Shown here piece after piece: positions 7,081 to 28,719 of a stretch of DNA of 64,000 nucleotides. Under the pieces are notes generated by a model that worked only from the letters and a program-made list of their open reading frames with translations, ran no database searches and was not told the DNA's origin. The position numbers and the translations under genes were made by a program. Origin of the DNA: Leucosporidium creatinivorum (taxonomy: Eukaryota; Basidiomycota; Microbotryomycetes; Leucosporidiales; Leucosporidiaceae); contig BCKL01000024.1 in NCBI GenBank assembly GCA_001600635.1, positions 235,395 to 299,394 of the forward strand, in the 5' to 3' direction. Position 1 is the stretch's first letter. Every line of letters starts with the position of its first letter.

Positions 7081-7682
7081 AGTCGGAAATGTGATACAAG
7101 TGCAAATCAGTGAGTTCAGTGCCCATGCTACGCTATGCGCTGAGAGGCGACTGCGAGCAGGTCGTTTCTTCGCTCGGCCGGTCTTTCTGCTCGGCGCCGA
7201 ACTCCGACTTCGCCTGGCCTCTTAGCATCCTTCCCAGGCAAAGCTGGACTTCAGCTGTGGTACTCAACAAAGATCACGCTCACACGGCGCTGTGAGACCT
7301 CTCGACGTCTCCCTTTCTACTCGTCGCCCGTCGTTCGGCGCACGGCCCTCTTCGGACAAAGGGCTCGCGCACAGCCTCTCGCTCGTCTCTGACTTCGCCT
7401 AGCGCCACGAGGATAAAGGCTAGCTGTGCACGATCTGCGAGGTGGAAGGCTGACGAGGATTGATTTCCTGTCCACCACTGCTCGCTCTGTCTTTGCCGAC
7501 GTCGCTCTCCTTCCTCGCCTTTCGCTTTCCTCATCTTACTACAGCGCCGGTCGCTTCTTCCCTTTTCACAACTACCGCTAGTCGGTCTCCCCAGTAGTCC
7601 CAGTCGACTTACCCTTCGCCAGCGCCGCGCGCCATTCGCTTTCCACCTTTTCCATCTCACTGTCAGCCCACCTCGCCTCAAG
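7081..7682. other. 3' end of kinase gene and outer edge of the left duplication arm
   Basis: Bases 7081-7282 are unique and hold the 3' UTR of the kinase gene. From about 7283 the sequence matches, in reverse, the region ending near 28575. The rest is presumably the promoter of the gene starting at 7683, since it is the part best conserved between the arms. No gene is seen. Confidence 0.5.
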
Positions 7683-8992
7683 ATGGGCTTCCTCACCAAG
7701 TCCTCTCTCACCTTCTGCACACTCAACCTCCTTCGCCTGTTATCGGTTGTAGCTATTTTGCTGGCGCTCAGTGGCGAGATCGTCACCATGGTCTCGTGAG
7801 CCGAATCCCTTTCTTCTCGGCGCCGAGCNCNGAGCTCACNTTNTCCNNCTNTTACTTGCNCAGCGACCTCAAGGGCGTGCAAGCTGTCCATCTCGCACGG
7901 GCCACTACCTCTACCGCTGCCTCAGCCTCCACCTCTACGGCCAGCACCAAGCTCATNCGCCGAGNGTTTTTGCCCGACNCTCCCATCATCCTCGACGCCG
8001 GTTCAGCTGCCCTCTCCTCACCTACCGCCATGGCTACACTTGTACGGCGTAGTCAGATCAAGCGTGAGGTGCGCACCTCGTCCTCGGAAACGTCGACCAG
8101 GGCCGTGACCGNCGGTGCTCGGCCTTCGCCGTCGCCTACGCCCGTTTCGACCCCGGCGAGCCAGGAGACGACGACCTGCGCCTACATCGGAGAGACGAGC
8201 GTACCGAAGCAGGTCGGTGGCATCCTGTTCTCTACATTGGAGAGGATCTTTTGTGGTCAGTCTGACTCCAAAGCTCGGTGCCATTTGCTGGAGCTGATCG
8301 CCGAACTTCGCTTCTCCCATCCCCTCTCGTCCTTCACTCCCTCACCCTTCACAGCCATCATCCTCATTTTTGCCCTCCTCGCCGAGCTCCCGCCTCACTC
8401 AAGATTCACCCAGCGCTTCTGGACCTACGCTTTCCCGCCGTTCGGCGAGTCCTTCGGCACCGGCGTGCTCGGCGTCGTCCAGGTCTTTGTCGGCTGTTCG
8501 GCTTTGAGCCACTCGTGAGTAGCCCTTTTCAACGACTGCAGTTGCTTCCTGACCCATTTATTGTGAACTGACGTCCTCTTCTACCCTTCGAACAGAAACC
8601 AGCAGTTTCCGCTGGTCTCCTTCTGGTTTCTCTTCATCGTCGGCTTCCTCAACATTCTTTTTGTATGCCAGCGTTCTCAATCACGATAGAACTTTGCTGA
8701 CCTCCCTCTTCCCCCACAGGGCCTCGCATTCGGCGCCTCGCTCAAGCCACTTCGGTCGATCATGGCCTCTCCTTCCTCTCCGTCTCGACCCTCCGGTCTC
8801 AAGGCCCTTCGCACAAACGCCGCTCCCCATGCAGGAGCTGCATCTGCCTACTTCGGCTTCGATGGAGAAGGACCCGCTGCCCCTGCGCCAGTCGCCAGCA
8901 AGGGCAAGAAGGAGAGGAAGCCCATCTTCATCTCGCCGCCGATGGCTCAGGCCAGTGCGCCGCCTGTGTACCATGGCGAGGGTAGGGAGTAG
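7683..8992 (+). CDS. Four-TM membrane protein, basidiomycete DUF7598-like (left copy)
   Basis: Five exons (7683-7795, 7864-8255, 8355-8514, 8596-8662, 8720-8992) splice in frame to about 334 residues. Membrane segments are predicted at residues about 12-34, then AIILIFALLAEL, then GVLGVVQVFVGCSALSHS, then FPLVSFWFLFIVGFLNILF. The layout of a first helix ending in a MV..D motif, a serine/threonine-rich loop, and a conserved LE/R..FG..LG..Q block resembles the uncharacterised basidiomycete DUF7598 family; I recall this resemblance and did not search it. The C-terminal tail is cytosol-like and lysine/proline-rich. Function is unknown. Twelve N bases lie in intron 1 and exon 2, so a few residues are undetermined. 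The right-arm copy is at 26875-28189. Confidence 0.72.
7829..8112. other. Cluster of ambiguous bases (left arm)
   Basis: Twelve N positions occur at 7829, 7831, 7840, 7843, 7847, 7848, 7851, 7860, 7957, 7965, 7979 and 8112. The first eight are in intron 1 of the four-TM gene and the rest are in exon 2. The right arm has exactly twelve Ns at the mirrored spacings. Confidence 0.95.
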
Positions 8993-9869
8993 CTGTACGA
9001 TACGTTAAACTAGTGCTATGGACACGTTTTTTGTTGCATCAGTGAGAGATCGGAGAGTGAAGGGTCATCGCCGAGAAGAGGCCCGAGGGCGACACGGCTT
9101 ATTGCAGGTGCCAGAGGGAGGTGCAAGAAGCGCTTAAGAGGGGTGTCTGCTTTGTCTATAAGCTGGCGATTGATACGAGTGGGGCGCGCGAGAAGCAGCG
9201 CGGGCGAACGAGCTCGGCGATGGGTCGGCTGAGGATGGCGCAAGCTGTGAGGCGTTGATGTAGCGTGTCTGCTACGAAGAGCCTTAGTACAATGCGCAGA
9301 CAGCACTCGCCACTTCTGCGACAGCCACCTCGATAGCTCGACCCCTCTCCAGCGCGCATCCGTTCCCTCCCCGCTCTCTGCCTTGCCCTCTCCCGCTTCA
9401 CTCGTCTCAGCTCGTCGTCTCATCTTCGCCCGCTAGTCGTCTGGAAATCTACAGGAAAAAGCTCTACTCGACTGCTACACGCCTACTCGCCCGCTGCACC
9501 TCAATACGACCTCGAGAGGACGCTTTGCTGGAAGCTGCTGAGATTGAGCGCGTTCGCTGAATATTGACGTTGAATCGAAGGTTGCTGGACGGTGGGATCG
9601 AAGGCTGAGGGTGTACGAGCTGCTGCTGCTGTTGCTACTGGGACTGGGAGCGGGGAACAGCAGCTGGGGAGGATGGCGGCCGTGTTGAGCGATGCTGCTG
9701 ACTGTTCGCCACTACAAAGCTGCAGCCGGGACGGCTGCGAGGCTGCGAAGAGAAGCAGTGTACAGCGACTCGAAAGACTGTGAAGCTGAACCTCGTCGTC
9801 CTTCACCCGCAGTGCTCCTCCCCTTCCCCTCCTTCGCCGACCCTCCCCCGAATCGCTCGCTCGCTCGGT
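8993..9869 (+). promoter_or_regulatory. 3' end of four-TM gene and module B flank of F-box-like gene 2
   Basis: No gene is seen. The part from about 9040 to 9560 matches the right arm (about 26320-26850) in reverse. The part from about 9340 to 9560 also resembles the stretch upstream of F-box-like gene 6 (about 50480-50700), including a shared GGACGCTTTGCTGGAAGCTG. A branch-like GCTGAAC near 9783 followed by a CAG near 9812 suggests a 5'-UTR intron ending about 60 bases before the ATG at 9870. Confidence 0.5.
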
Positions 9870-11036
9870 ATGGCAGTCATCCAGGATCTACCACCCGAGC
9901 TGCTCAGAAAGATACTTGAGCTTGTCGAAACCGAGGACGATCCCTTGACGCGAAGCACTCTCTGTAGCGCTTCGCTCGTGGCCCGAGCCTGGACACACCC
10001 TTCGCAGCAAGTCTTGCTCGCCAGCATGGTACAAGGAGCACGTAGAGGCGGCTGGCGCCGCAGCGCACTTCGCCTCGCCGCCGGCTACCCCATCAGCGTT
10101 GTGCACTGCGGCGGGGAGGGCTCTCAAGCACTGTTGGACTGTATCAAGAAGTACGATGTTGGCGTTGAGACGTTGTCGATGCAGTACCCCGGGTCAAAGA
10201 GTGTCGATTGGAGCAGAATGGGCCTCAAACTACTCAGCGGTGAGCGCTACGAACCAATCCGCCTGCGCGTTGGCAGCGAAGCTAATGCCCTCTCCCTCCC
10301 AGGCCTCAAGACCCTTGATGTCTACGGGGTATTCGTAGGGCAGCCTCGTATCCCACCAAAGACCGTGCTCGAGCTAAGGACGCTCCGACTGCTTTCGGTG
10401 TCCCCTGAAATCTCTCGCTCGTTCTTACCCTCCCCAAGCTTCCTCGGCACCCTCCTCAGCGCGGCGCCTTTCTTAACTCGCCTCGACCTCGGGGTAGTCG
10501 ATGACGCCCAGTCACTCTCCCAAGAGTACGACGCAGTGTTTCAATCCGTAGCTCACCAGCTTCGCCACATCACCATGCCGGCCAATGCAATCGTCGACTC
10601 GCGGGGACCGACCTCGTTCGGCTTCCCTCGCTTCCTCGCCGCCTGCACCTCCCTCACTTCCCTGTGTCTGTACTCGGCGACCCCGAGCTTGATCAACAGT
10701 ACTCTTGATGCTTTGAACTCGCCTCTACTCCTTTTGGAGACCTCCCTGATCCCGTGGGAGGAGCATGGGTTCGACGAGCGAGGCCGCGCCCTCAGTGCCC
10801 TTCTAGCCCACCCTGTCCTAGGCACGTTGCGACGCTGGAGGATGCCTAGGATCACTCTCGCTCCGCCTGCGCTGACTGGGGGAGAAAGGATGCGCTGGGC
10901 CGCCGCCTGCCGAGCGAGGGGGGTCGAGCCTCGCAACGAGCACCGCTTCTTCACTGGTGAGTTCCTACCGTCTCTCTGAGCTCATTCAACGCGGAGCTAA
11001 CCTCCTGCTCTTCTCACAGACTACACCGTCGAGTAG
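9870..11036 (+). CDS. F-box-like/LRR family protein 2 (left arm, middle gene)
   Basis: Three exons (9870-10239, 10303-10956, 11020-11036) give 346 residues with no break. The start MAVIQDLPPELLRKILELVE is an F-box-like motif. The central part has leucine-rich stretches such as LKTLDVYGVF and FLTRLDLGVV. The end has a conserved LRRWRMP, then ACRARGVEPRNEHRFFTG, then the tiny last exon encoding DYTVE. By family, it would act as a ubiquitin-ligase adaptor with the LRR part choosing the target, but no target can be named. The first intron is 63 nt and in frame, so a read-through form would also be open. The equivalent gene in the right arm (24832-26008) is strongly diverged. Confidence 0.75.
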
Positions 11037-11889
11037 TTCGACCGGCGAGTCAAAACGTAGGATCCATCTCCGCCTTCTCGCTGACCTTCTTTCGCTTCGC
11101 AAATAGGTGGACGTGCTTGCTCCGAGACGACGAGATAGGATACGCTGGATACGAGAATCTCGATGAACCTGCTTTGCTTTCCGTCAGCTTCGAGGTCGAG
11201 CGAGTTGAGTGAGAGCGAGAGAGGAGAAGGCGGCTCGGCGCTGGCAAAGGGAGGCGATGGAGTGGTGCAGAAGGCTGCAGACGCCTCGCAGAGAGAGGAG
11301 AAGTGCTGTGGTAGAACACACTTCAGCCCCCCTTCGTTCACCTACAGCTCGACCTCCTCTCGCGCAGCTCCCTCTCCCTCAGCCGAGAGTCGAAAGCGAA
11401 CTTCGAGCGAGCGTCTCTTTCCCTCCCGCTTCTCGCTCGACTTTGCTTCTCTCACCCGCTCGACAGCTCTCAGCTCGGATAGGAAGCTCTACTACACCTC
11501 TACTACACCTCGACTACACCTCCCTCGCCCGCTCGTCGACGAGGACTCGCTCAGCTCAAAACCTCGAAACGGACGGACGCTGTGCGCTGAGACGAGGAAA
11601 GCTGGTTCGCTGCTGCTCCTGGGTGTGCTAGAGTACTCGAACAAGGTGAGTAGTGCGGTTGAATAGTAACTGGGTTAGTGCGTGCTGTAGGAGAGCGCTG
11701 GACTCAGAGAAGAGCGGCGCCGAGGGAGAGCGAGGAGGGTCGAGCGTCTGTTGTGGTGGGGAGCGGAGGGCGGTGGGGGAGCAGAAGTCGTACCGAATAG
11801 CAGAGATGCCTGGCAAAGACCGTAGCTAATCACAGCCTTTCCATCAATCAGGCCGCAGCTCGCCTTCTCTCCCGCCTCCCTCGGTCGAC
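11037..11889 (+). promoter_or_regulatory. 3' flank of F-box-like gene 2 and module A flank of gene 3
   Basis: No gene is seen. The 3' part of the cassette (about 11100-11300) recurs in reverse at 24540-24780 and again at 63370-63600 near the seventh family member. From about 11340 the module A flank starts, similar to 70-500 and to the reverse of 23970-24480. A GCTAATCAC near 11824 and a CAG near 11852 look like the end of a 5'-UTR intron. Two family cassettes therefore lie tail to head here. Confidence 0.5.
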
Positions 11890-13065
11890 ATGGCGGTCAT
11901 CCAGGACCTACCGCTCGAGCTGATCAGGAGAATCCTCGAGCTACTCACCGAACAGTACCAGAGCCGAGATGCTGCCCAAAACCTATGCTGCACCTCCCTC
12001 GTCAACGGAGCCTGGCGCGATCTCTCGCAAGCGCTTCTCTTCACCGAAACGGATCTCGAAGGCTGGGGCTGGGAGAGTCGTTTCCCCATCTGCCGCTCCG
12101 TCATGCGCTCGAATGCGCGCTGAACTCTTCGCAGGGTCGAGCTTAACGCTCAACACGCCCAGGAAGCGCTCCAAGTGCTGGAAGAGCAGGAGATCGCCGT
12201 CGAGAGCTTCGTGTTGCTCTTCGGAGAATACGGCCCCTATGACGGGGATGAGTTCGACATGAGTAGGGTTAGTGTTAGGCTACTTGCAGGTGCGCCCGTA
12301 GACGCCATTGCTCGCGCCGCTCCTCACTTCCTCCAACTTGCAGGCCTCAAGTCGCTCTGGATCGCAGGGAACTTCACAGGATGCCCCAAGATTCCCTCGG
12401 ACACCAAGCTGGCGCTCGCCTGTCTTGCTTTCGACCCATTCTACCTGCCATCGGTCTCCTTTCTCGACTCAATCCTTCCCGCCGCGCCCTATCTCACCTG
12501 CCTCGAGTTTGAAGTGACGGAAGACGGAGATTGGCTGCCCGGGGACTACACCCTGCGTCTACAACCCCTCCTCCATCGACTTCATCGCCTCGCAATACGC
12601 CCCTTCTCAGAGTGTCACCCAACTGCCCGAGCGCCCCTCGATGTCACTCGCTTCGTCTCCTCCTGCACCTTCCTCAGGTCACTGAAGCTGGACGGTTGTA
12701 GTACGACCTTTGTCAAGGACGTTATTACTGCATCGCGTGCATCTCTGGCTGTTTTGGAGACCTACCTCACGGGGGGAAGGGAGGACGGCCGAGGAAGCGT
12801 TGAGGTCGCCGAGCTCCTCGTCATTCTCAAACTCCCGGCGATGATGAAGCTTAGACGCTGGAGGATCCACGATCAGGACGAGGCTTTTGGTGGGAAACTT
12901 GGTCAGGCGGGGAAGACCCAGTGGGAAGACGCCTGTCGAGCTCCAGGAGTGGAGCCTCGCGACGAGGTGCGGTTCTTCACTGGTGAGTCGCCATTCGTTT
13001 GTCCACTGCTCCCCGAATACAGCGCTGACACCCTCACCTATCGAACAGACTATCCCGGGTCATGA
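11890..13065 (+). pseudogene. F-box-like family protein 3 (left arm, inner gene), interrupted
   Basis: The start MAVIQDLPLELIRRILEL is the family F-box. Leucine-rich parts follow, then ACRAPGVEPRDEVRFFTG and a last exon (13049-13065) encoding DYPGS. Introns lie at 12290-12343 and 12983-13048. A TGA at 12121-12123 stands where the right-arm copy has TGC and gene 1 also has a cysteine codon, so this copy is cut after about 77 residues unless translation restarts. The downstream part stays open (from the ATG at 12175) and would lack the F-box. The TGA sits in a branch-like GCTGAAC before a TTCGCAG, but no upstream donor restores the frame, so I do not favour an intron. The right copy (22787-23967) carries different lesions. 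Confidence 0.7.
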
Positions 13066-13560
13066 TTGTAGAAGCGCGCTGGATGGTGAACCGCTCGCGA
13101 GGCTGGCTTTCATCGCCGAGCTCGCGCTGACTCGCTTGCTTTCGCAGATGAGCTATCACATACGATAGGGATGACCAAAACTCGAGTGTTAATAAGAGCT
13201 CTGCTACAGGATGAACGGCGTCACGCACTCCGAGAGCTTGCCCGACTTCTGCGAGCAGCGAGTCCGAGTTTCCGGCTTTCCTCTTCGATTTGCTACAACT
13301 CATCATCAACCAGAACACACTTTTCTGCCCTGTCACGCGTTTTGCTCGACGTGTCAAAGCGCAGAGAGCTCTATCCGAAGTTCAGCTCGCCACTCGGCGA
13401 ACGTGACAAGGAAGTACGAACGACGATTGCGCGAGTAATGCATTCGACAACATGAGCCAAGGAAATTGCTAGAACGAGTAAGAGAGAGTTGGTCGTCGTG
13501 TGTGGGGTGTACTGCTGCGATAGTGTTGCTTGATGCCGAACGAGCTCGTCTCGAGCCTCC
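13066..13560. other. Inner edge of the left arm and 3' side of sepH
   Basis: Bases 13066-13205 still match the right arm (reverse of 22642-22786). Beyond about 13205 the sequence is unique and leads to the stop of sepH at 13561. No gene or terminator-like signal is recognised. Confidence 0.4.
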
Positions 13561-16500
13561 TCATGCTCCTCGCCCGAACATGTTCCCCTGCCTCCTCACC
13601 GACCCCGCTCCTCCAGGTGAAGCCGGGACTGCTCCCACCACTCCACCAGCTCCCACGACTCCACCCTCCGACGCCGCCCTCCTCAGCACCCTCTTCTGTA
13701 CTTCCCTCCTCCCTCCCTCCCTGACCCTCCCAAACTCCCGCTTCAGCTCCTTCGCCAACTCCTTGACCAAGATCGCGGGATCTTCCTCGGCCAATCGACC
13801 AACCGGAAGAAGGAGGATCTTGACTACCTTGTCGCGCTGCGAGAGAGGGAGGGCGTCGAAGACAGTCTTGGTGATTCGAAGGAGGTTGAGGCGGGTGACG
13901 GCTTTGCCCGAGACGGAGGTGCGGCTGAGACGATCGATGATGCGCTTGAAGAAAGAAGAGGAGGATGCGAGGCGGATGGAGACGGCGGGCGAGGTTCGGA
14001 GGAGCTGCGACGAGGGAGGGTCAGCTTCGGCGAGTGGAAGAAGCTAGCGCAGACGACTCACCTTGTGGAAAGGCTCGAGTAGACTTTCAAAGGTAGCGCT
14101 CTTCGTCTTGCAGAAGACACGCAGTAGAGACTCGAGCGCCGTCGCTTCGAGAAGGCAGTCCTCGACTCGGGCGGTCTCGTCCTGGAGCCTGATCGCAAGC
14201 GGGAAGTCATCGGCGAGGTCGGCGAGCGTAGCAGGGACACACTTACCATGAGAGGATAGCCTCGAGTGCCGGGTTGGCCCAGAAGCTGTCGCGCAGGAGG
14301 GTGAGGTAGAAGCTGAGGCCGTCGTGCTTCCAAAGCCTGCGCGAGAACAAGTCGTTAGCACTGACTCGACTCCTGCGACCCCGTCTCGACTTACAGCTTC
14401 CTGCAAGTCTTGCTCGCATGCGCAAAGTCGCAAAGGATCGGGAGAGCAAACTGCTTGAGAGGCGAGCTGCCTGAGACGATCTCTTGGAGGATGGGGATGG
14501 CGCCAGCGATGGCAGCCTCTTCTTGTCGGACCGAGCTGAGTCGACAGAGGTTGAAGAGGGCGTTGACGACGTGGTTTTGGATCTCCTGTCGAGGGAAGGA
14601 GAGTCAGCGCCGAGCGGGAGATAACAGGCCGTAAGAACGCACAGCGCCGAGTTTGCCTTCGCACGGTTCGGCGAGAATGCCGACGAGGATCTCGATGGCG
14701 TTGGCGTTCTGGAGGACCTCGAGCGCCGAAGGGAGCATGGTGAGGTTCTTGATCGTCTTGAGTAGGGGAGCGAGGAGGTCGGGCGTGAGCATGCGAAGGG
14801 CTTTGACGAGGCCTGTAGATCACCAAGAGTCAGCATTGTACTCTTCTATCAGGCCACAGAGCGGGAACGGCAACCTACGGAGCACGATGGTCCGCCTCGC
14901 CATCGCTTCCTTGACCTTGCGATCCGACTGAGAGAAGAGAAGGAAGATGCCGATGATCTTGGCTTTGGCGCTCTCGGCCAGATCGTCGTCGTCCACTGCG
15001 ACGCTGATCAAAGCGCTGGACAGAGGTTCTAGTAGACCTTCGTGGCTGAAGATGCGGCAGAAGTCGTTGCGAGGAGTCGGGCCCTGCGGGGGGAGATGGC
15101 CGAGGGTCAGCGGCGAGAAGCAGGGCTAGGCTAGAGTAGTTCGGACTTACATGCATCTCGAAGACTCGGCTGATGCCGTCGACTGCCATCCAGACGAGAT
15201 CCTTGCGCTCAGCGTCTACGAGGGAAGAAGGAGATCAGCGTAAGCTCCCATCTCGGCAGCGTGAAGACCCACAATTCTCATCCATCATCTCGACCAACGT
15301 CTTCAATCCTCGGCAGCTGACGAACATCTGGAGCTGTTGATGCCGTCTCTGGTCAGCTCTCGGCGCAGCGGAGGTCAAGCACACGAGCCGACTCACCGTT
15401 AACAGCGAAGTTCTGCACATGCTCCCGATGAACAACGCCGCCTCGAGTCGAATCTCGCGAGAGAACTTGATGGAGGCAAAGCCCATGACGACGGGGCAGC
15501 CACCGACGAGCTGTCGGCGGGGTTTGAGGAGAGAGGTCAGCTCGGCGCGGAGGGAGTAGAAGAGAGGAGCGAAGGAGACGTACGCAGAGCTTCTCCAAGG
15601 TATCAGGGTCCTCGCCGACGATCTGATCGGTGGAAGAGGTTAGCTTCTGCTGCGCTCGACGGTCGAGGGAGCGAACGTACGAGGTTGACGACCCTCAGCA
15701 AGATGCTCAGGATCTCCCTACTCCTCGTGACCTGCAACACCTCAATCACCGCCAGCATGCCATGGGATTTGACAAAGTGAGGTTTCACTTCGGGCGAGAG
15801 TTCGAGAATGGTGATCTGTCGGCTCAGGGTCAGCTCGGCGCTCGCTCGATCAGTCAAGTCCAGGACTTACAAGCTCAAGACACCCCTCCCTGACTTCAAA
15901 CTCATCCTCCCCACCTCCTCCCAGTCGATCCACACACTCCTCCACATTCTTCTGCAACCTCGCCAACTTCTCCCTCGCGACGCTAGCCTCCAACTCGATC
16001 CCTCCTCCGCCGGATACATCGTCCAGGTCGCCGAGGGAGTTGGAGTCCTCGTCGTCGACTGCGGCGAATGGGTCGTCCTCGTCTGAGTCTTCGTCGCCGA
16101 GCTGCGAGGAGGGGGGAGGGTCAGCGAAAGCAGGGTGAGGGGAAGGAAGAGCGACGTACCCAGCTCTTGCTTGATAGCTTCGTGCTCAGCTGTAGACTCT
16201 GCAGGCTCCTCTCTGTGGAATAAAACATCGTCAACGCTTTCCTCGCCCTCGCGCTAAAGCCGAATCCGAACTTACCTTTCTCCTCCCCGTCCCCCTCCTT
16301 TGCTCTCCCCGCCGCGCCACCCAGCAGCACGACTCCACCGGACCCACCAAACACATCACTATAATCCTCCTCCTCTCCCTCCGCTTCCGAGTACTTGTCG
16401 ATGCCATGCTTACTCTTGCTGGCTGCTGGAGGTCGGAGAGTAGCGGTCGACGAGGGAGACTTGAGAGGGAGGGGAGCGAGGGGTTGACGAGGTGCAGGAG

Positions 16501-18973
16501 AGGGGGAGGAGAGCGAGGAGGACTTCAGAGACGGGCGATGGGTGGGAGTGAGGGTGCGGAGAGAGGCGGGTGAGGAGGGAGCGGAAGAGGTGGAGGTGAA
16601 GGAGTCGGAGGCGAGGTCTTTGGGGTGCAGCAGGCGCGGGCGGGAGAGGTTGGCTTCCTGCTCAGTCGGTATCGTCAGCTTCCATCGCTCTGCAGAAGTA
16701 GCACAAAGCCCAGTATTCACCCTCAGCCTCCTCACTTTGCCCTCGAACCCCTCCTCGCCGTCCTCCACTAGATCCGAGTAGTCCTCCACGACGGGGGTCA
16801 TCGGCGTTGGCGCCTTCTTGGCGATGGGAGAGAGCACATTCGATGGCCGGATCGTACCGTCTTGGTCCTCGTCTGACCCGTCTGAGTCGGGGTCCGAGTC
16901 GGAGGAAGCCGAGGGCGACGAATCGGCGCGATCGAGGGCTGTTCGCGCGAGAGAGGAGTAAGTAAGCGAGCCGACAGGGGGAGAAAAGCAACGAAGACGA
17001 CCCGCCAGCAATCTTGCTCATCGAGATCCCCTCCTCAAAGTCCTCATCCCAATTATCCCCTTCCCCCTCGTGCTCGACCTCCGCTGCTCCTGCTGCCGTT
17101 CCAAGCTCGGGAACCGCCTGCCCAAGCTTCATCATCATCGCCTTGCCCGCCGCTCGACTCCTACTGCCCGCCCTACCCAACCCGCCCCCACCGATCGTGC
17201 CCTCCCTCGCTCGTTTCGGACTGAGCACAGGCGCCTTGCTCCCGACTACCAGGGCTAGACCGACGGCACGGCTGTTGGATGATGTTGAGAGAGTTGAGGG
17301 TGTTGAGCTGATGGAGGAGGATTTTGGTGGAGGAGCGGGGTGGAGAGCGAGCGCTGAGGCGAGCTCGGCGGATGGGCGGCGGAGGAGGCGAGGGGAGAGG
17401 GAAGGGGAAGGGGCGAGGGAGGAGGGGGAGGGGAGCGGTGGTGGGTTGGCTATGCGTTTGGAGAAGGTTAGCAAGTGAGCCATCGAGCACAAAGGAGAGA
17501 GGACGTACCCCGAATCGCCTCGTTCCACTCCTGCACCCTCTGAACTCCATCATCATACACGCTCTTCGGTCTCGCTCCAATCCCCGTAGCACCACCCTGC
17601 ACACCACTCCCTCTCGCCCTCGCACCACCTCCCGCACCCGCACTAGCCTCCCTCTCCTCGACCCCCCTCCTCGCCGCCACCATCCACGGATGCCTCAACA
17701 GCCTCCTCGCCCCCACCCTCAACATCCCATCCTTCTGAAAACAGTACCCCAAAAAGTCCCTCACGACCGCACTAGCCCCCTCTGGAATCGGGGGGCCCTC
17801 CGGATCATTGACGATGCGAAAGAGAGCGGGCATAGGGTCGAGGTGGTGGTAGGGGGGTTTGCCGGTGAGGAGTTCGATGACGAGGGCGCCGAGGGACCAG
17901 ATGTCTGAGGAGGTGGTGGCGCCCGTTTGGTCGACGATTTCGGGGGCCATCCAGTAGGGGGAGCCTACTACGGCGGAGGTGGAGAGGGAGGAGGTGTGCG
18001 TTGCGACGCCGAAGTCGGCCACTGGTGTTGGGCAGGACGAGGAAGCAAAGGAGTTGGTGAAAGGAGGAGGGAGATGATGAAAAGTCGGAGAAAGGGAGAA
18101 GGAGGGAGTGAGAACGGAGAGAGTCAGCGCAGAACTGAGCCAGTGAGCCTGATGAGGTCTTCAAATGGCCCCGAATGCCCTCGCCAAGGCATTCCTCATC
18201 CCTCAAGATACCTCTCTCGCTCCCTTCTCCAGCTCCGCTGCCCGCCTCTTAGAATCCAATCGCTCCCATTCCCATCGCCGAACCCTCAAACCCGAATATC
18301 ACACTCACATTTGATCCCCCCCTCCTTATTCGCCAGAATATTGCTCCCCTTGATATCTCTATGAATCACTCCCTGATCGTGTAAATAAACGAGACCCTGC
18401 AAGACCTGCAGCACATAGAGGGCGACGAGGGATTCGGGGAAGCGGCCAAACTTCTTGACGATGGCGTGGAGGGAGCCGTTCTCGCAGTACTCGAGGATGA
18501 TGTAGAGGTGAGTTGAGTTGGCTTGGTAGCCTCGGTATTGAACGATGTTGGGGTCTGTCCAAAGGGGAAGGGGTCAGCGCGCGCGCGAGAGCCGAACGGG
18601 GAGAGAGAAACGGACGGTTGAGGTTCTTGAGTAGGTCGATTTCACTCTGCGTGTAGTTGTATAGCATTAGCTGCTGCTCCGCCATCGCACTAGACGACAG
18701 ACGCACCATGATGTCGGGTAAGTCGCTCTTTGGAATGTTGGCCAACCCGATTTGCTTGACGGCGACCGTTTCGCCTGTAGTCCAATTGAGGGCGCGGTAG
18801 ACTGAGCCGAACGAGCCTTGTCCAAGCTTCTCGCCTAGTTTCTGTAGGATTTGAAGCGAGTTAGTAGACCTCTCGAAACACGCAGAGACGCGGTCTGAGC
18901 GGGTGAGCTGAGCTGTACTTGCATAGTGAGGGAGAGGCTGATCCATCGAGTGGGGTGACTCGAGGGCAGCCAT
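13561..18973 (-). CDS. sepH: Septation initiation network kinase (SepH / S. pombe Cdc7 type)
   Basis: A multi-exon gene of roughly 1,200 residues starting [17 protein letters not shown]. The N-terminal kinase domain has the glycine loop [11 protein letters not shown], the lysine in [26 protein letters not shown] and [10 protein letters not shown] proline/serine-rich linker follows with DNWDEDF, a phrase typical of this family. The long C-terminal half is ARM-like, for example [18 protein letters not shown] and [19 protein letters not shown]. The protein ends in a basic tail with NMFGRGA. The family acts at the spindle pole body, downstream of the Spg1 GTPase and upstream of Sid1/Sid2, to start septation. 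The intron between the GGIK and LADFG parts (about 18022-18308) is 287 nt, long for this window. The start is supported by a TACTAAC branch and in-frame splicing just after residue 17. Not to be confused with the replication kinase also called Cdc7. Confidence 0.88.
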
Positions 18974-19138
18974 CTACCCGAGAAAGCTGTAAGGCGATAC
19001 GAAGCAGTGCGAGATGTAGGGAGACGAAGAGAGACGGGTCGCGTCTGTCCTGTCTCCCCTTGCTTGGCCCGAGAGGGAAATCGGACTTAGAAACGGCGGG
19101 CCTCTCTCAGCTCTCTCCCTCTCCCACCTCTTCGAAAA

Positions 19139-22100
19139 ATGGCCTCAGCTGCTGTCGCTGCACCTGTTCGACCTCGTGCTCGGTTGGGAAAGAAGGAGAA
19201 GCAGCAATTACGCCAAGATGTACAGCCTACAGAGCTACAGCCTGCTGCTACTCCCCTCACCACCACCTCGGCAGACGCAAACTCCTCCGCTTTGCTCGAC
19301 CATTTCTTGCTCGCTCAGCCCCAATCTTCCAGCTGTCCGGTCGTGTTCACCAAGGACAACGTGTAAGCTACCATACTAGTCTCTGCAGCGATCTAGTACA
19401 ACCCTCGGCGAGTTACAAAAAGCTCACAGTTGTTTTCTCGCTCTCTTCGCCGCGCCAACAGCTACGCCCTCCTCACTTCGGGCTCCTCGGTCCTAATCTA
19501 CTCTGTAGCAACCGCTCAGCTCATCTCGACCCTCTCACCACTCGCCTTCGACTCGCCTACATCCCCCGCCCCTTCCACTTCGACCTCTCGCAAAGTCTCG
19601 TCCCTGCTCATCAACCCTCACAACCACCTCCAACTCATCGTAGCTCACTTGGACGGCACGATTCGCGTATGGGACTACAACGAGGGCAAGCTCCTCCGCA
19701 CGCTCGACCTGGCCGCCCCCGTCCTCTTCGCAACGGGCCATGAATCCCTCCCCGACCAGCTCTTTGTCGCGCTCGCCGGACCGGCAAAGGACGACGCCAA
19801 GACGACTGCAAAGGACAAGAAGGAGTCGACTCCTACCGCTGGGATCTACGCCATCTCCCTGCGCGCTTCGACGACCGCTCCCGCCTCTTCGGCGGCAGGC
19901 TCGGCGCTCGCTTCCACCCCTCGCCCTCCCTCCCGTCGCATGCGCCTCGCCCNCCCCCGCCCCATCGTCGCGCTCCAACTCTCTCCCTCCGGAAAGCACC
20001 TCATCTCCGTCACCCCCACCTCTTTGCACATCCTGCAAACCGCCCACCTCTCTCGCGGGTTCGCCGAGACGCTCGAGTCGGAGGAGAAGTTGACGAGCCT
20101 CGCGTTCCACCCTAGTGAGGATTACTTTGCTACTGGTGATGTGAGGGGAAGGATCCGGTTCTGGTACGGAGCGTTGGAGGGCGATGAGGAGGCCGAGAAG
20201 GAGAAGAAGGAGGCAGGGGGAAGGCCCGCGACGGCCATCTTTCATTGGCATGCCCACGCCGTTTCGTCCCTCGCTTTCACGCCGAATGGAGCGTACCTCC
20301 TTTCGGGAGGAGAAGAGGCCGTCATGGTCCTTTGGCAGCTGCACACGGGTCACCAGGAGTACGTGCCCCGTCTAGGAGCGCCGATCCTCTCCCTCGCGAT
20401 TACGGGAGAGCAGCGCGCCGATGGTGGAGAGCAAGTTGTTGCTGCTAGGTTGAGGGACGGCACGACCGTCTTGATTGGAGTGCAGAAGTTAAAGATCTCG
20501 AGGACCATCGCCGGTGTCAAGGCTGGTGCGTTGCTCTCTCTCTCTCTCTCGCTTTCTTATCCTTGCACCTCGCTGATCTCTTCCTCACCACCAGATCCTC
20601 CCATTTCGGCTCCCCGCCCCTCCTCTTCGAACCTCACCCCCCTCGCCCTCCTCCCCAGCACCTCCTCCTCCACCTCCTCCACGACGCTCGTCCTCCCTTC
20701 CTCCCACCCCTCCTCCCTCCAATTCTACCAACCCTCAACCGACACGCAACTCCTCGAACTCGAAATCTCGCCTTCCAATCGCGTCTCAGCGGCCGGGAGC
20801 AAGGCGCTCGAACCGACGAGGGTGCAGCTTGTGGCTTTCAGTCAGCCGGAGGAAAAGAGGGGAAACGGGGGGTATTGGATGGCTACGGTCGATTCGTGGC
20901 AGAATGGAGGGTTCAAGGAGCAGCAGAGGTTGAAGTTTTGGTGGAAGAAGAGTGGCGAGGAGACTAGGTGCGTTGCTCGCTCGCTCGGCGCTTCTGTTCT
21001 TTCGTTCTCGGTCATTCGCTGACTTATCTCGCTCGACCATCCTACAGCTTCTCTCTCACCACCCGCATCGACTCTCCCCACTCCTCGCCCATCACCTCCC
21101 TCTCCTTCTCCCCTTCCACATCCACCTCTTCCCCCCTCCTCCTCACCACCTCCCTCGACGGGCTCATCAAGCTGTGGTCGCTCCTCTCCCCCTCCTCCTC
21201 CTCCTCCGCCTCCTCCTCCTGGGCCTGCCGCTCCTCCCTCTCCTACCGCTCCTTCGTGCCCCTCTCCTCCTCCTGGTCCGCCGATGGGTCCATGTTCGCC
21301 ATCGCTCATTCGAGGAGCGTGACGCTGTGGAGTACGAGGGAGTTGAGCTTGATCAAGGCGTTTGCGTGTGAGAGTGTGAAGCCTGTTACGAAGGTTGCTT
21401 TTGGAGGGGAGGAGGGGGAAACCTTGTTGGCGGGTGGGGAGCATGGTGTGATGGGGTGGGGGTTGTTGGACTTTGAGGGTGAGTTTGAGCCTTCTCGATA
21501 GTGCACTTGCATACGCCGAGCGAGCCCCAAGAGCAGCTCCAGCGGCGAGCGACTTTAGCTCGGAGCTTTCGCTGACCTTTCCCGTCGTCTCCCTCGCCCA
21601 TTCATCACGCATCAAACTCAACAGAGTCCTTCTCCCTCTCCTTCCCCGTCGCCTCCCTCACCTCCAAGCCCAACTCGTCGACCATCATCGCCACCGAGAA
21701 GCCCATCTACACCGCATCCTCCCCCTCTTCCGCCGCTTCCTCCTCGCCCTCAACTTCCAACGAAGGCGCCTCGACCTCCACGGCATTCATCATCCACGCT
21801 CCTTCCGCCTCCTCTTCTACCTCTGCCGCCGACAGCAAGCCGAGCGTCACGACCCGCCCTCTCCCCTTCCCCGTCACCCAATCGCTCTGGCTCCCTGTCC
21901 CTCCCTCCACCTCTTCGACCGCCGACGAAGAGCTCTCCCTCGCAGCCCTCTCCCCGAACGGCACCGTCTCCCTCCTCGGCGCGGCCGCTCGCGTCGGTTC
22001 CGCCATTCTCCCTACTCGCCTCCCCACCGCCGTGCAGAGGGGCAAGGGCATGTCCCGTCTATTCGATGAGATCTTTGGTGCGGAGGAGGAGGCTACCAAG

Positions 22101-22530
22101 GTCCGTATGGTGAAGGAGGAAGCCAAGGTCGATGGCAAGGGCAAGAAGCCCGAGTCGGCGCTTAGTCTGCTCGAAGAGACGCCCGCCCACGTGCTGCCTC
22201 CCGTCAGGATGCTGTGGAGGGAGATGCTCGGAGGGTTCAAGGTTGCCTCTACGCCTTCGGTCGCCGTCGAGAAGGTGGTCGTTGGCGAGGGAGAGGGAGA
22301 CGCCAAGATGGTGGAGCAGGAGGAGGCTTCCGATATCGTCTTCGCACCGAGTCAGGCGGACGAGTTGAGCAAGGTGTTTGGCGAGCGGTTGTTGCTGTGT
22401 GGGTTGTCTCCTCCCCTCGCGTCTCGACGAGCTCGGTGCTGACCTTCATCCCTCATCAGCCTCGCCCAAAAAGTCGCCCACCAAGCAGCTAAGCGGTACG
22501 CCCAAGAGTGGGAAGAAGGGGAAGCATTAG
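19139..22530 (+). CDS. UTP17: WD40 U3 processome (t-UTP) subunit, WDR75/NAN1-like
   Basis: Six exons (19139-19362, 19462-20525, 20595-20967, 21048-21478, 21625 to about 22399, about 22460-22530) encode about 980 residues. WD-type repeats include DGTIRVWDYNEGKLLRTL, GRIRFWYG, EEAVMVLWQLHTG, LTTSLDGLIKLW and RSVTLWSTRE. These form the double propeller of Utp17/WDR75, which joins the t-UTP complex at 35S pre-rRNA in the nucleolus. The N-terminus is basic (RLGKKEKQQLRQ), and the C-terminus ends in SPKKSPTKQ and a lysine tail. One N at 19953 leaves a codon undetermined. The last intron junction (phase 1 at about 22399) was chosen to keep the lysine-rich tail in frame. The gene is divergent from sepH, with only 165 bases between the two starts. 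Confidence 0.85.
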
Positions 22531-22786
22531 ATTGGTCGCAGCTGGTATCATTCGGCGAGGACTGAGAACGACACGATCTCATACTTTGCGATTCGCCGGA
22601 GCCGAGTCGACCGAAAGTCTTGGAAATCGCACAGCAGCTTCCACATGTGACACAGCTCTTATCGACACTCAAGTTGATCATCCCTGTCGTATGTGACAGC
22701 TCATCTGCGAAGAGTAACGAGTCAGCGCGAGCTCGGCGATAGAAGCCATCCTCGCAAGCGGTTCACCTTGCAGCGCGCGTCCACAA

Positions 22787-23967
22787 TCATGACGCCGGCC
22801 AATCTGTTCGATAGGCGAGGGTATCAGCGCTGTATTCGGGGAGCAGCGGACCAACGAATGGCGACTCACCGGTAAAGAACCGCACCTCGTCGCGAGGCTC
22901 CACTCCTCGAGCTCGACAGGCGTCTTCCCACTGGGTCTTCCCCGCCTGACCAAGTTTCCCACCAAAAGCCTCGTCCTGATCGTGGATCCTCCAGCGTCTA
23001 AGCTTCATCATCGCCGGGAGGTTGAGAATGACGAGGAGCTCGGCGACCTCAACGCTTCCTCGGCCGTCCTCCCTTCCCCCCGTGAGGTAGGTCTCCAAAA
23101 CAGCCAGAGATGCACGCGATGCAGTAATAACGTCCTTGACAAAGGTCGTACTACAACCGTCCAGCTCCAGTGACCTGAGGAAGGTGCAGGAGGAGACGAA
23201 GCGAGTGACATCGAGTGGCGCTCGGGCAGTTGGGTGACACTCTGAGAAGGGGCGTGCGAGAATTGCGAGGCGATGAAGTCGATGGAGGAGGGGTTGTAGA
23301 CGCAGGGTGTAGTCCCCGGGCAGCCAATCTCCGTCTTCCGTCACTTCAAACTCGAGGCAGGTGAGATAGGGCGCGGCGGGAAGGATTGAGTCGAGAAAGG
23401 AGACCGATGGCAGGTAGAATGGGTCGAAAGCAAGACAGGCGAGCGCCAGCTTGGTGTCCGAGGGAATCTTGGGGCATCCTGTGAAGTTCCCTGCGATCCA
23501 GAGCGACTTGAGGCCTGCAAGTTGGAGGAAGTGAGGAGCGGCGCGAGCAATGGCATCTACGGGCGCACCTGCAAGTAGCCTAACACTGACCCTACTCATG
23601 TTGAACTCATCCCCGTCATAGGGGCCGTATTCTCCGCAGAGCAACACGAAGCTCTCGACGGCGATCTCCTGCTCTTCCAGTACTTGGAGCGCTTCCTGGG
23701 CGTGTTGAGCGTTAAGCTCGACCCTGCGAAGAGTGCAGCGCGCATTCGAGCGCCTTTGGAGCGGCAGATGGGGAAACGACTCTCCCAGCCCCAGCCTTCG
23801 AGATCCGTTTCGGTGAAGAGAAGCGCTTGCGAGAGATCGCGCCAGGCTCCGTTGACGAGGGAGGTGCAGCATAGGTTTTGGGCAGCATCTCGGCTCTGGT
23901 ACTGTTCGGTGAGTAGCTCGAGGATTCTCCTGATCAGCTCGAGCGGTAGGTCCTGGATGACCGCCGT
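22787..23967 (-). pseudogene. F-box-like family protein 5 (right arm, inner gene), broken
   Basis: Nearly identical to the left-arm gene at 11890-13065, including the intron sites and tag (ACRARGVEPRDEVRFFTG, last exon DWPAS). Two lesions differ from the left copy. The start codon reads ACG at 23967-23965, where the left copy has ATG. A one-base length difference near 23750-23762 puts the F-box part out of frame with the rest. The TGA that interrupts the left copy is TGC here. A two-codon insertion in the leucine-rich part (LHRLAILARPF against LHRLAIRPF) is in frame. I therefore read it as a pseudogene, although a shorter open frame covers the LRR and tag. Confidence 0.75.
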
Positions 23968-24831
23968 GTCGACCGAGGGAGGCGGGAGAGAAGGCGAGCT
24001 GCGGCCTGATTGATGGAAAGGCTGTGGTTAGCTACGGTCTTTGCCAGGCATCTCTGCTATTCGGTACGACTTCTGCTCCCCCCCCGCCCTCCGCTCCCCA
24101 CCACAACAGACGCTCGACCCTCCTCGCTCTCCCTCGGCGCCACTTCTCTGCCAGTCCGCTGGTCTCCTACAGCTCCCGCTGGCCGAATGACTGTTCAGCA
24201 TCACTACTCGCCTTTTCAAGCAATCTATCACACCCAGCAGCAGCACCGAACCAGCTTCCTCTTCTCAGCGCACTGCGTCCGTCCGTTTCGAGCTTTCGAG
24301 CTGAACGAGTCCCCGTCGGAGAGCGGGCGAGCGAGGGAGGTGTAGTCGAGGGGTAGTCGAGGAGTAGTACAGAGCTTCCTGTCCGAGTCGAGAGCTGTCG
24401 AAGGGGCGAGTGAAGCAACGTCGAGCGAGACGCGGGAGAGAAAGAGACGCTCGCTGGAAGTTGGCTCTCGACTCTCGGCTGGGGCTGCGCGAGAGGAGTT
24501 GGAGTTGTAGGTCGATGGAGGGTTCTAAGTTGGAGTGTGTTCTACCACAGCACTTATCGTCTCTCTGCGAGTCGGCTCTAGCCTTCTGCACCACTCCATC
24601 ACCTGCCTTCGCCAGCGCCGAGCAGCCCTCTCCCCTCTCGCCTCACTCAACTCGCTCGACCTCGACGCTGACGGAGAGCAAAGCAGGTTCATCAACATTA
24701 TCGCATCCAGCGACTCTCCCTTATCGTCTCGGAGCAAGCACGTCCACCTCTGCGAGATGAGAGAAGGTCAGCGGGGCTCGGCGGAAGGGAGAAGGCTGCG
24801 AAGGAGCTCACCTCTCGACTCGTCATTCTGA
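23968..24831 (-). promoter_or_regulatory. Module A flank of pseudogene 5 and 3' flank of F-box-like gene 4
   Basis: No gene is seen. The part next to 23968 is module A in reverse. Its stretch 24120-24230 resembles the flank at the start of the window (205-300) more closely than the equivalent part of the left arm (11640-11720). The part 24540-24780 is the shared 3' flank, also seen at 11100-11300 and 63370-63600. Confidence 0.5.
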
Positions 24832-26008
24832 CTACTCGGCAGGGTAGTCTGGGGGGGTGAGAGAGCGTCAGCATCCCTCCTCGAGGTTGAGAACAGCGTC
24901 GGGAAAGCTCACCGGTGAAGAAGCGGCGTTCGTCGCGAGCTTCGATCCCTCGCTCCTGACACATCTGGCTCCACACCCTCAGAACTTCCTCCCTCTCGCG
25001 CGCTTTCTCGGCACGGGGGAGTATATACATCCTCCAGCGCTTCAACTTCGACAAGGTAGGAAGCTCGAAAGCTTGCTCCACCCAACGCTTGGGCATCCGC
25101 TCCTCTTCGTGAGCGAGCTCGGTCGTCAAGAGCTGCACGGTGCTGCTCAGGAAGCGAAGGCGCGTGTAGACATAGCTCGTGTACATGACGTTGATTTGGA
25201 ACGAGCGAAGAGCGGTGCAGGCGCGCAGGAAGGTGGGGAGAAAGCCGTCGTCCTCGTCCTCGCAGTAGGGAGCCTCGGCCGAATCGACGAGGCTAAGATG
25301 GCGAAGTCTGGGGCCGAGATTGAGCCACAGGTCTTCTTCTTCACTCAGAGAGCTGCGGTCCGCCGCCATGTACATGCAATTCAAGGTGAGGCTGGTGAGA
25401 TGGTCGGCGGCGAGCAAAAGAGGGCGAAGGATGGGGGAGGGCGGCAGGTGAATGGTGTGCAACACGAGTTGTTCGAGAGGAAGGGGACCGGGAAGGGGGG
25501 AAGGAAGCACTCCTTCGAGGTCGCTGCTCACTTCTAAGCGCTTGAATTTAAGATCTGTGTGGAGCCGGGAGCTCTGTCAGCCTTCGAGCGTGGCGAGTTC
25601 AGCGGGAAGCTACGCACCGACGAGCAGCTTTGGGTAGAGGGCATCCACCGTGAGCTCCCTTCGTACGTCTCGAAACGAGAAGCTGTCCACCTCCTCTACC
25701 AGCTCGCAGAAGAGCGCGAGCGCCTCCACACATTCTGGCTGAAACGAGCGCAGAGCCAGCCTCTTCAGCGAAGGACGACTCTTGATGTTGAGGATGTGTC
25801 GCAGAAGAGCCACGGCGTTCTTCGAATCAATCTCGATGTCCTCCAGCATCAGCCGCTGAGCTTGTGCAGTCCACGCCCGAGCGACGAGGGAAGCCGTGCG
25901 GAGTGGTGCTTTGGGCGAGATGGGCGAGCCGTAAAAGTTAAGAGCGGGCTCAATCAGCTCGAAGATACGGTGGAGCAACTCGGGTGGTAGATCCTGGATG
26001 ACTGCCAT
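24832..26008 (-). CDS. F-box-like/LRR family protein 4 (right arm, middle gene)
   Basis: The start MAVIQDLPPELLHRIFELIE is the family F-box. Leucine-rich stretches follow (LEQLVLHTIHL, LTSLTLNCMYM, LRHLSLVDS), then LSKLKRWRMY, then QERGIEARDERRFFTG and a last exon encoding DYPAE. The first intron runs between the parts ending LYPKLLVG and starting LKFKRLEV. I find no break, so it should be expressed as an SCF-type adaptor candidate. It occupies the same place as gene 2 of the left arm, but its sequence between the F-box and the tag is largely different. Its last exon and 3' flank look more like those of the seventh member at the window end than like gene 2. Confidence 0.75.
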
Positions 26009-26874
26009 GTCGAGCGAGCGAGCGAATCGAGGGGGAGTCGGCGAGGGAGAGAAGGGCGAGGAGCGCTGCGGGCGAAGGACGACGAGGTTCAGCTTCACAT
26101 TCTTACGAGTCGCTGTACACTGCTTCTCTTCGCAGCCTCGCAGCCGTCCCCGCTGCAGCTTAGCACTCAACAGCATCGCTCAACACGGCCGCCATCCTCC
26201 CCAGCTGCTGTTCCCCGCTCCCAGTCCCAGTAGCAACAGCAGCAGCAGCTCCTACACCCTCAGCCTTCGATCCCACCGTCCAGCAACCTTCGATTCACCT
26301 TCAATATTCAGCGAACGCGCTCAATCTAAGCAGCTTCCAGCAAAGCGTCCTTTCGAGCTCGTGATGAGGTGCAGCGGTCGAGTAGGCGTGTAGCAGTAGA
26401 GCAGAGCTTCTCCTGTAGCTTCCAGTCGAGTAGCGGGTGCGAAGATGAGAGGACGAGCTGAGACGAGTGGAGCGGGAGAGGGCAAGGGAGGAGAGAGTGG
26501 GGAGGGTGAGGGAGGAGATGGGAGATGGGAGAGGGGTCGATCTATTCGCAGAAGTGGCGAGTGCTGTCTGCGCATTGTACAAAGGCTCTTCGTAGCAGAC
26601 ACGCTACATCAACGCCTCACAGCTTGCGCCATCCTCAGCCGACCCATCGCCGAGCTCGTTCGCCCGCGCTGCTTCTCGCGAGCCCCATTCGTATCAATCG
26701 CCAGCTCATAGACAGAGCAGACACCCCTCGTAAGCGCTTCTTGCACCTCCCTCTGGCACCTGCAATAAGCCCTGTCTCCCTCGGGCCTCTTTTCGGCGAC
26801 GACCCTTCGCTCTCCGCTCTCTCACTGATGCAACAAGAAACGTGCACATGGCACTAGTCTATCGTATCATACAC
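26009..26874 (-). promoter_or_regulatory. Module B flank of F-box-like gene 4 and 3' end of four-TM gene
   Basis: No gene is seen. The stretch matches 8993-9869 in reverse, with small differences, and its part near 26320-26560 also resembles 50480-50700. It includes the likely promoter and a 5'-UTR intron end for the gene starting at 26008. Confidence 0.5.
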
Positions 26875-28189
26875 CTACTCCCTACCCTTGCCATGGTACA
26901 CAGGCGGCGCATTGGCCTGAGCCATCGGCGGCGAGATGAAGATGGCCTTCCTCTCCTTCTTGCCCTTGCTGGCAACTGGTGCAGGGGCAACGGGTCCTTC
27001 TCCATCGAAGACGAAATAGCTAGATGCAGCTCCTGCGTGGGGAGCGGCGTCGGTGCGGAGGGACTTGAGACCGGAGGGTCGAGACGGAGAGGAAGGAGAA
27101 GCCACGACCGACCGAAGCGACTTGAGCGAGGCGCCGAATGCAAGGCCCTGTTGGGAAAGAGGGAGGTCAGCAAAGTGCTTTAGTGATTGAGAACGCTGGC
27201 ATACAAAGAGAATGTTGAGGAAGCCGACGATGAAGAGGAACCAGAAGGAGACGAGCGGGAACTGCTGGTTTCTGTTCGAAGGGTAGAAGAGGGCGTCAGT
27301 CAGCGACAGATGCGGCAGAGATCGGCCTGAGGTGATTTCCAGATTAACTCACGAGTGGCTCAAAGCGGAGCAGCCGACAAAGACCTGGACCGCGCCGAGC
27401 ACGCCCGTGCCGAACGACTCGCCGAACGGTGGGAAGGCGTAGGTCCAGAACCGCTGGGTGAACCTCGAATGAGGAGGCAGCTCGGCGAGGAGGGCGAAGA
27501 TGAGGATGATGGCTTTGAGAGTGAGAGTGAGGGGAGCGAAGGAGGAGAGGAGATGGGAGAAGCGAAGTTCGGCGATCAGCTTCGGAGAAGGCAGCGTGCC
27601 CTGGAGTCAGACTGACCACAAAAGATCCTCTCCAATGTGGAGAACAGGATGCCACCGACCTGCTTCGGTACGCTCGTCTCTCCGATGTAGGCGCAGGTCG
27701 TCGTCTCCTGGCTCGCCGGGGTCGAAACGGGCGTAGGCGACGGCGAAGGCCGAGCACCGNCGGTCACGGCCCTGGTCGACGTTTCCGAGGACGAGGTGCG
27801 CACCTCACGCTTGATCTGACTACGCCGTACAAGTGTAGCCATGGCGGTAGGTGAGGAGAGGGCAGCTGAACCGGCGTCGAGGATGATGGGAGNGTCGGGC
27901 AAAAACNCTCGGCGNATGAGCTTGGTGCTGGCCGTCGAGGTGGAGGCTGAGGTAGCGGCGGAGGTAGCGGCCGGTGCGGAGCGGACAGCCTGCACGCCCT
28001 TGAGGTCGCTGNGCAAGTAANAGNNGGANAANGTGAGCTCNGNGCTCGGCGCCGAGAAGAAAGGGATTCGGCTCACGAGACCATGGTGACGATCTCGCCA
28101 CTGAGCGCCAGCAAAATAGCTACAACCGATAACAGGCGAAGGAGGTTGAGTGTGCAGAAGGTGAGAGAGGACTTGGTGAGGAAGCCCAT
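26875..28189 (-). CDS. Four-TM membrane protein, DUF7598-like (right copy)
   Basis: Same five-exon layout as 7683-8992, read from 28189 down to the stop at 26875-26877. The first helix (MGFLTKSSLTFCTLNLLRLL) is identical between copies. Differences cluster in the serine/threonine-rich loop (GVQAVRSAPAATS here) and the tail (GLKSLRTDAAPHAGAASSY here), and none breaks the frame. Exon 2 and intron 1 carry twelve Ns at mirrored positions to the left copy. Both copies therefore look functional. Function is unknown; membrane location is inferred from four hydrophobic segments. Confidence 0.72.
27760..28043. other. Cluster of ambiguous bases (right arm)
   Basis: Ns at 27760, 27893, 27907, 27915, 28012, 28021, 28024, 28025, 28029, 28032, 28041 and 28043. 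The spacings (2, 9, 3, 4, 1, 3, 9, 97, 8, 14, 133) are exactly those of the left arm read in reverse. Confidence 0.95.
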
Positions 28190-28719
28190 CTTGAGGCGAG
28201 GTGGGCTGACAGTGAGATGGAAAAGGTGGAAAGCGAATGGCGCGCGGCGCTGGCGAAGGGTAAGTCGACTGGGACTACTGGGGAGACCGACTAGCGGTAG
28301 TTGTGAAAAGGGAAGAAGCGACCGGCGCTGTAGTAAGATGAGGAAAGCGAAAGGCGAGGAAGGAGAGCGACGTCGGCAAAGAAAGAGCGAGCAGTGGTGG
28401 ACAGGAAATCAACCCTCGTCGGCCTTCCACTTCAGACTTGTGCACGGGTAGCCTTTATCTTCGTCGCATTGAGCAAATTCAGAGACGAGCGAGGCCGTGC
28501 GCAAGCCCTTTGTCCGAAGAGGGCCGTGCGCCGAACGACGAGCGACGAGTAGAAAGGGAGACGCCGAGACGTCTGGACAATGTCGAGGGCACCAGATCGC
28601 GTATATGCAGCTGCCTTTTGTCAGCGAAGCAGGTGAGGAGCAGCTCGCCTGTACCCAAGCCTCGCTCGCTGCCAGTTGCCATCGCCGAAAGCAAATCACA
28701 CCCTCAATCGCAAGCAAGT
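28190..28719. other. Outer edge of the right arm
   Basis: Bases 28190-28575 match the left arm and hold the upstream region of the four-TM gene. The remaining 145 bases are unique and are probably the 3' UTR of the LRR gene. No gene is seen. Confidence 0.4.

Follow-up and report, generated by a model that had tools for sequence, protein, structure and literature searches.

An inverted duplication in Leucosporidium creatinivorum with strongly diverged middle F-box/LRR-like genes: possible replacement of a gene core in one arm

Layout and identity profile of the mirrored locus

We analysed a 64-kb stretch of DNA from the basidiomycete Leucosporidium creatinivorum (contig BCKL01000024.1; hereafter the window), which contains a large inverted duplication whose two arms carry very different F-box/leucine-rich repeat (LRR)-like genes at corresponding positions. 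BLASTN of the whole window against itself aligned 25973–28574 with 9905–7295 (91.2% identity) and 22651–24955 with 13203–10912 (89.6%), both in inverted orientation, and a repeat search returned 13 inverted repeat pairs across the same span. The mirrored structure described in a first-pass annotation is therefore present in the assembly: two arms of about 5.9 kb each, in opposite orientation, flank a once-only spacer of 9.4 kb. Reading inwards, both arms contain a transmembrane (TM) gene, a middle F-box/LRR-like gene and an inner F-box/LRR-like gene, and self-BLASTN and segmentation of the arm alignment show that the two arms match over their whole length in gene order, orientation and intergenic DNA. 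Gene models were built on GT-AG introns, and the previously annotated coordinates of the middle genes fit the spliced models exactly.

7295–13203, + strand: arm A (self-BLASTN and segmentation of the arm alignment)
22651–28574, − strand: arm B (self-BLASTN and segmentation of the arm alignment)
13204–22650: between-arm segment, single copy (no second copy in self-BLASTN)
7683–8992, + strand: TM gene of arm A (DUF7598), five exons, 334 aa; four Ns in exon 2 and eight in intron 1
26875–28189, − strand: TM gene of arm B, five exons, 334 aa; Ns at mirrored sites
9870–11036, + strand: A-mid, F-box/LRR-like middle gene, three exons, 346 aa (gene model)
24832–26008, − strand: B-mid, F-box/LRR-like middle gene, three exons, 349 aa (gene model)
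11890–13065, + strand: A-in, inner F-box/LRR-like gene; in-frame TGA at 12121
22787–23967, − strand: B-in, inner F-box/LRR-like gene; ACG for ATG at 23967–23965, one-base gap near 23757
9906–11078, + strand: diverged stretch of arm A (segmentation; 48.8% identical to arm B 25972–24774)
24774–25972, − strand: diverged stretch of arm B (segmentation)
11079–11715, + strand: flank 3' of the diverged stretch (84.7% identity with arm B); possible extension of an exchanged tract
7460–8270, + strand: near-identical patch 1, mirrored at 28412–27602; contains all 12 arm-A Ns
11716–12977, + strand: near-identical patch 2, mirrored at 24141–22875; without Ns

Segmentation of the arm alignment revealed a mosaic of identity levels (arm-A coordinates throughout). 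The outer edge (7295–7459) is 85.8% identical and gives way to patch 1, in which 7460–7881 and 7937–8270 match at 99.8 and 99.7% (97.9 and 98.5% with Ns counted as differences) on either side of an 80% island at 7882–7936. Further inwards identity is 86.7% (8271–8520), 91.9% (8567–9186) and 92.8% (9381–9905), interrupted by short islands at 41, 99 and 73%. Across the diverged stretch at the middle gene it falls to 48.8%, compared with 41 and 47% for the DNA just beyond the arms. It then recovers to 84.7% on the 3' side, reaches 98.6 and 99.0% in patch 2, which also has a 6-base gap, and ends at 86.4% at the inner edge. The 46 bases that open the third TM intron (8521–8566/27346–27301) are 41% identical between the arms, and the last part of this intron is nearly identical.

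The outer and inner genes had been described as highly similar between the arms. For the TM genes this applies best to exons 1–2, where the same base occupies 105 of 108 fourfold degenerate sites, and less well to exons 3–5 (77 of 94). The inner genes differ at few bases and the alignment bears out their similarity, although both carry the lesions listed above.

The bases called N require a more cautious reading of these patches. All but one of the 25 Ns in the window form 12 mirrored pairs (7829–8112/27760–28043) that occupy the same columns of the arm alignment, eight of them in TM intron 1. The probability that 12 Ns would mirror one another at random over 5800 columns is about 1e-36, a rough guide only because the Ns are clustered. 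According to the accessible part of one source, mixed evidence is expected where reads from several repeat copies are pooled (PMC4237348). Patch 1 appears to be at least partly such a pooled consensus and, because of the 12 mirrored pairs, provides no independent evidence of conversion; part of the apparent near-identity of the arms may thus be an assembly artefact. The sole N beyond the arms lies at 19953. An erroneous head-to-head join of two haplotypes was considered and dropped, as the ends of both arms all enter different DNA.

Divergence of the middle genes and comparison with other family members

A-mid and B-mid are very different, as the first-pass annotation had stated, with only 32.7% protein identity, and are distant paralogues within a single F-box/LRR-like family. 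In their core (codons 13–320) the same base is found at 19 of 55 fourfold sites, where composition alone predicts a fraction of 0.30–0.32, whereas all six such sites in codons 1–12 agree. Silent-site saturation is therefore confined to the core, and the DNA similarity breaks sharply at 9905/9906, which is codon 12. Since saturation in the core extends to silent sites, plain fast change of amino acids is insufficient to explain the middle genes, and the earlier alternative of very fast diversification is disfavoured in its simple form of amino-acid selection. Intron 1 of A-mid (10240–10302) is 63 bases long, in frame and open, such that the unspliced reading gives a continuous open reading frame (ORF).

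The window holds seven members of the family: U1, A-mid, A-in, B-in, B-mid, U5 and U6. Those outside the arms are as follows.

508–1626, + strand: U1, with an inner-type 5' flank (match 121–560); 3' end placed by eye
51024–52173, + strand: U5, 346 aa, open model; middle-type 5' flank at 50487–51023
63648–64000, − strand: U6, 3' part of a family member that runs off the window; followed by a middle-type 3' flank (63364–63647)

The reading frame of U1 shifts between 1355 and 1378. Provided that the bases at these lesions were called correctly, three of the seven genes would be broken, as in birth-and-death turnover, with the other four open as far as seen.

The contrast between alike flanks and a saturated core recurs in these further members. 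The 5' flank of U5 is 78% identical to that of A-mid and 79% to that of B-mid, while the fourfold sites of its core are saturated against both (16 of 46 and 13 of 45 the same, respectively). The 5' flank of U1 matches the inner-type flanks of the two arms at 72 and 78%, and the 3' flank of U6 matches the middle-type flanks at 82 and 83%. DNA similarity between loci stops about 12–18 codons past the start and resumes some 20 codons short of the exon 2 boundary. No middle-type 3' flank was detectable at U5 (local scores of 22–25 against a best of 28–32 in 200 shuffles), so 5' and 3' flanks are not always paired. In arm-A coordinates, the 5' flank of U1 (121–507) stays near arm B as far as about 11745, after which the resemblance is clearly weaker; this suggests that U1 may be a mosaic as well.

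The DNA on both sides of the middle gene had been said still to match between the arms. It does so on both sides, but on the 3' side no better than to the third copy, U6. With U5 as the outside copy, 78 sites in the 5' flank are shared by the two arms, 18 by arm A and U5, and 22 by arm B and U5; with U6 outside, the corresponding counts in the 3' flank are 21, 19 and 20 (Fisher p = 1.1e-4 between the flanks). Identity between the arms is likewise lower in 11079–11715 (527 of 622 positions) than in 9381–9905 (476 of 513; p = 2.4e-5). U1 as the outside copy extends the comparison inwards: three bins spanning 11529–11621 give 8 sites shared by the arms, 5 by arm A and U1, and 5 by arm B and U1; three spanning 11622–11714 give 9, 2 and 24, leaving arm A as the odd one; and from 11715 onwards the counts are 54, 1 and 1. 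On the 3' side (against U6 to 11307 and U1 for 11529–11714) the arms thus show no kinship beyond that to an outside copy. On the basis of these site patterns and bins, the stretch without special kinship between the arms may span 9906 to about 11715, and an exchanged stretch may have been larger than the middle gene itself. Near-identity returns at 11716, but this position is the boundary of patch 2, whose sequence may be a consensus too, and an exchange could thus have ended anywhere from the stop codon to 11715.

The favoured tree of the core is (B-mid,U5) | (U1,(A-mid,A-in)), with support of 90/92 and 85/84 for its splits, or 79/87 and 71/81 when the final 26 exon 2 residues are removed. 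The genes with middle-type flanks are parted in this tree and A-mid goes with the inner-type genes. Constraining A-mid and B-mid to form a clade costs 8.28 log units (5.36 without the last 26 exon 2 residues). Within the window, the best non-self tblastn match of A-mid is A-in at 141 bits, against 92 bits for B-mid. These sequence comparisons lean towards a replacement in arm A rather than in arm B.

Predicted proteins and neighbouring features

The TM gene matches DUF7598 in Pfam (E = 3.2e-6). For the middle genes, Pfam reports F-box-like matches in A-mid (E = 1.2e-4, 22.2 bits, below the curated cut-off of 24.3) and B-mid (E = 0.0031, 17.7 bits, also below the curated cut-off). U5 has no F-box match at E <= 1 and matches LRR_R13L1 below the cut-off (E = 0.0014). 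The predicted model of A-mid, which contained 21 residues translated from intron 1, shows alternating strands and helices with a mean predicted local distance difference test score (pLDDT) of 65.4. Eight of its ten Foldseek matches in the PDB at E <= 0.001 are F-box/LRR complexes (TIR1, D3, SKP2 and COI1) and the other two are NLRP3; query-normalised TM-scores (a measure of fold similarity) to these F-box entries are low, at 0.33–0.45. A model of B-mid exon 2 (pLDDT 79.2) has an SKP2 entry as its top match (E = 3.4e-3), and none at E <= 0.001. From the weak F-box motif and the predicted fold we infer that the middle-gene proteins are putative SCF-type substrate receptors, in which the LRR core would choose the target. 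They resemble the FBXL receptors of SCF ubiquitin ligases (TIR1, COI1, D3/MAX2 and SKP2) in their weak N-terminal F-box-like match and, for A-mid, in the complexes retrieved by Foldseek, and are unlike them in their sub-cut-off Pfam scores, the want of an F-box match in U5 and the low TM-scores.

The spacer, which the arms could in principle allow to flip, contains two features with database matches.

19430–21022, + strand: UTP17/WDR75 ORF (Pfam and PDB sequence matches)
18359–18973, − strand: partial protein-kinase match (Pfam, 27 bits, cut-off 31.7; sub-threshold)

The earlier assignment of UTP17 to the spacer is supported by these matches, whereas the sole match for the sepH gene that had been placed beside it is the sub-threshold partial kinase. 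A Pfam search of 20 further ORFs (10 at E <= 0.001 and 10 at E <= 0.01) matched three, namely an F-box-like gene (below the cut-off), an amidohydrolase and CWC25. This F-box-like gene (29513–30457, − strand; 19.4 bits) is a separate one beside arm B and was missed by the family tblastn. An inverted repeat pair of 159 bases, 93.7% identical and with no Rfam match, is found at 37182–37340/44029–44187. Across the window there were no Rfam matches at the gathering threshold and ARAGORN found no tRNA genes.

Origin of the diverged middle-gene core

We propose that a block of about 5.9 kb, comprising a TM gene and two F-box/LRR-like genes, would have been copied in inverted orientation around the 9.4-kb segment, and that the middle-gene core of one arm would subsequently have been replaced through ectopic recombination or gene conversion involving an anciently diverged family member. 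This core was more likely that of arm A, and the 3' flank was possibly included. The conserved gene start would represent one homologous edge of the exchange, and the promoter already in place would then drive a new receptor. Taken as a whole we regard the replacement of one core as the best explanation, and as somewhat probable; that an exchange took place, which arm received the new core and by what mechanism are all things that we infer. It is the best-supported reading because silent sites have reached saturation in the core and not in the neighbouring exons, because the 5' edge is sharp, and because the favoured tree splits the middle genes. The replacement suggested in the first-pass annotation is strengthened to this extent, but the tree tests are not decisive.

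Several observations weigh against a replacement. In approximately unbiased (AU) tests a clade of A-mid and B-mid is not rejected at 0.05, either with the full core (p = 0.070) or without the last 26 residues (p = 0.138), nor with exon 2 including U6 (0.113), exon 2 with six rows and no U6 (0.283) or exon 1 alone (0.258), and the core trees have long branches and few rows. The best tblastn match of B-mid in the window is A-mid (99 bits, ahead of A-in at 81 and U5 at 79). The 15% divergence on the 3' side is about that of the arm ends (14%), and U6 may be of the same age as the duplication. No donor was found in the 64-kb window; a pattern search for family relatives gave 58 matches in viral contigs and 110 in genome contigs, with none confirmed in either. 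The AU results and the best match of B-mid would also suit old arms in which conversion homogenised the flanking genes while the middle cores drifted from a common ancestor with no foreign donor, shielded by selection against conversion or by lost homology. Sharp-edged near-identical patches in the outer and inner genes are the expected trace of such conversion, and the accessible text of PMC3924837 describes peaks of divergence of this kind for duplicated genes. On the other hand, the favoured trees part the two cores, saturation would need a very long conversion-free time beside DNA that is 85–93% identical, and patch 1 may be pooled consensus as opposed to conversion. We judge such long divergence of cores shielded from conversion rather unlikely, although it is the chief competitor of the replacement.

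Less probable again is a stepwise assembly, in which the cores differed before the mirrored layout arose, the TM, middle and inner units were duplicated separately, and later conversion unified the shared parts. The density of the family and the flank types that do not always travel together, as at U5, would fit such a history; the end-to-end match in order, orientation and intergenic DNA is more simply explained by a single duplication. That misassembly or pooled consensus gave rise to an arm, to both arms or to the near-identical patches seems to us very unlikely as a general account. The mirrored N pairs, eight of which lie in TM intron 1, a place where mixed calls would be expected from diverged copies, and the abrupt jumps to 99% identity speak for it, while large parts of the arms differ by 7–15% with definite bases and every arm end enters different DNA. 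An artefact could account for the patches, but hardly for the arms or the middle genes.

Clustered, fast-changing F-box genes are familiar from the plant S-locus and from the F-box families of Caenorhabditis, which the present family resembles in these respects, here as known from the sequence of one window. Gene conversion between inverted repeats, such as that of C. elegans hsp16 (as cited in the accessible part of PMC3966223), likewise involves opposed arms with patches of near-identity; in the present case there is a 9.4-kb spacer, one block is unhomogenised, and the patch with mirrored Ns is unusable as evidence. The peaks of divergence in opsin genes and RHCE/RHD, so far as the available text of PMC3924837 describes them, also combine high divergence in a restricted region with low divergence around it, whereas here an entire coding core is saturated at silent sites and the tree leans to separate core origins. 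Among the literature matches listed, no title or abstract opening describes the mirrored arrangement, the subscription literature being mostly beyond reach.

A broader and more doubtful idea, which we hold to be improbable as it stands but worth stating, is that the family diversifies by cassette exchange, with LRR cores repeatedly swapped among loci whose flanks, first 12–18 or so codons and last 20 codons stay alike. If this is true, the family would give the fungus a set of ubiquitin-ligase receptors that can be exchanged for one another and are driven by shared promoters, perhaps serving non-self recognition; the mirrored arms would then record one such swap and form a natural before-and-after pair for it. 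Should the near-identical patches prove to be pooled consensus, they would serve as a warning against inferring conversion from assemblies of this kind. If cores are indeed exchanged as cassettes, recombination between copies would add to point mutation as a source of turnover in F-box receptor families.

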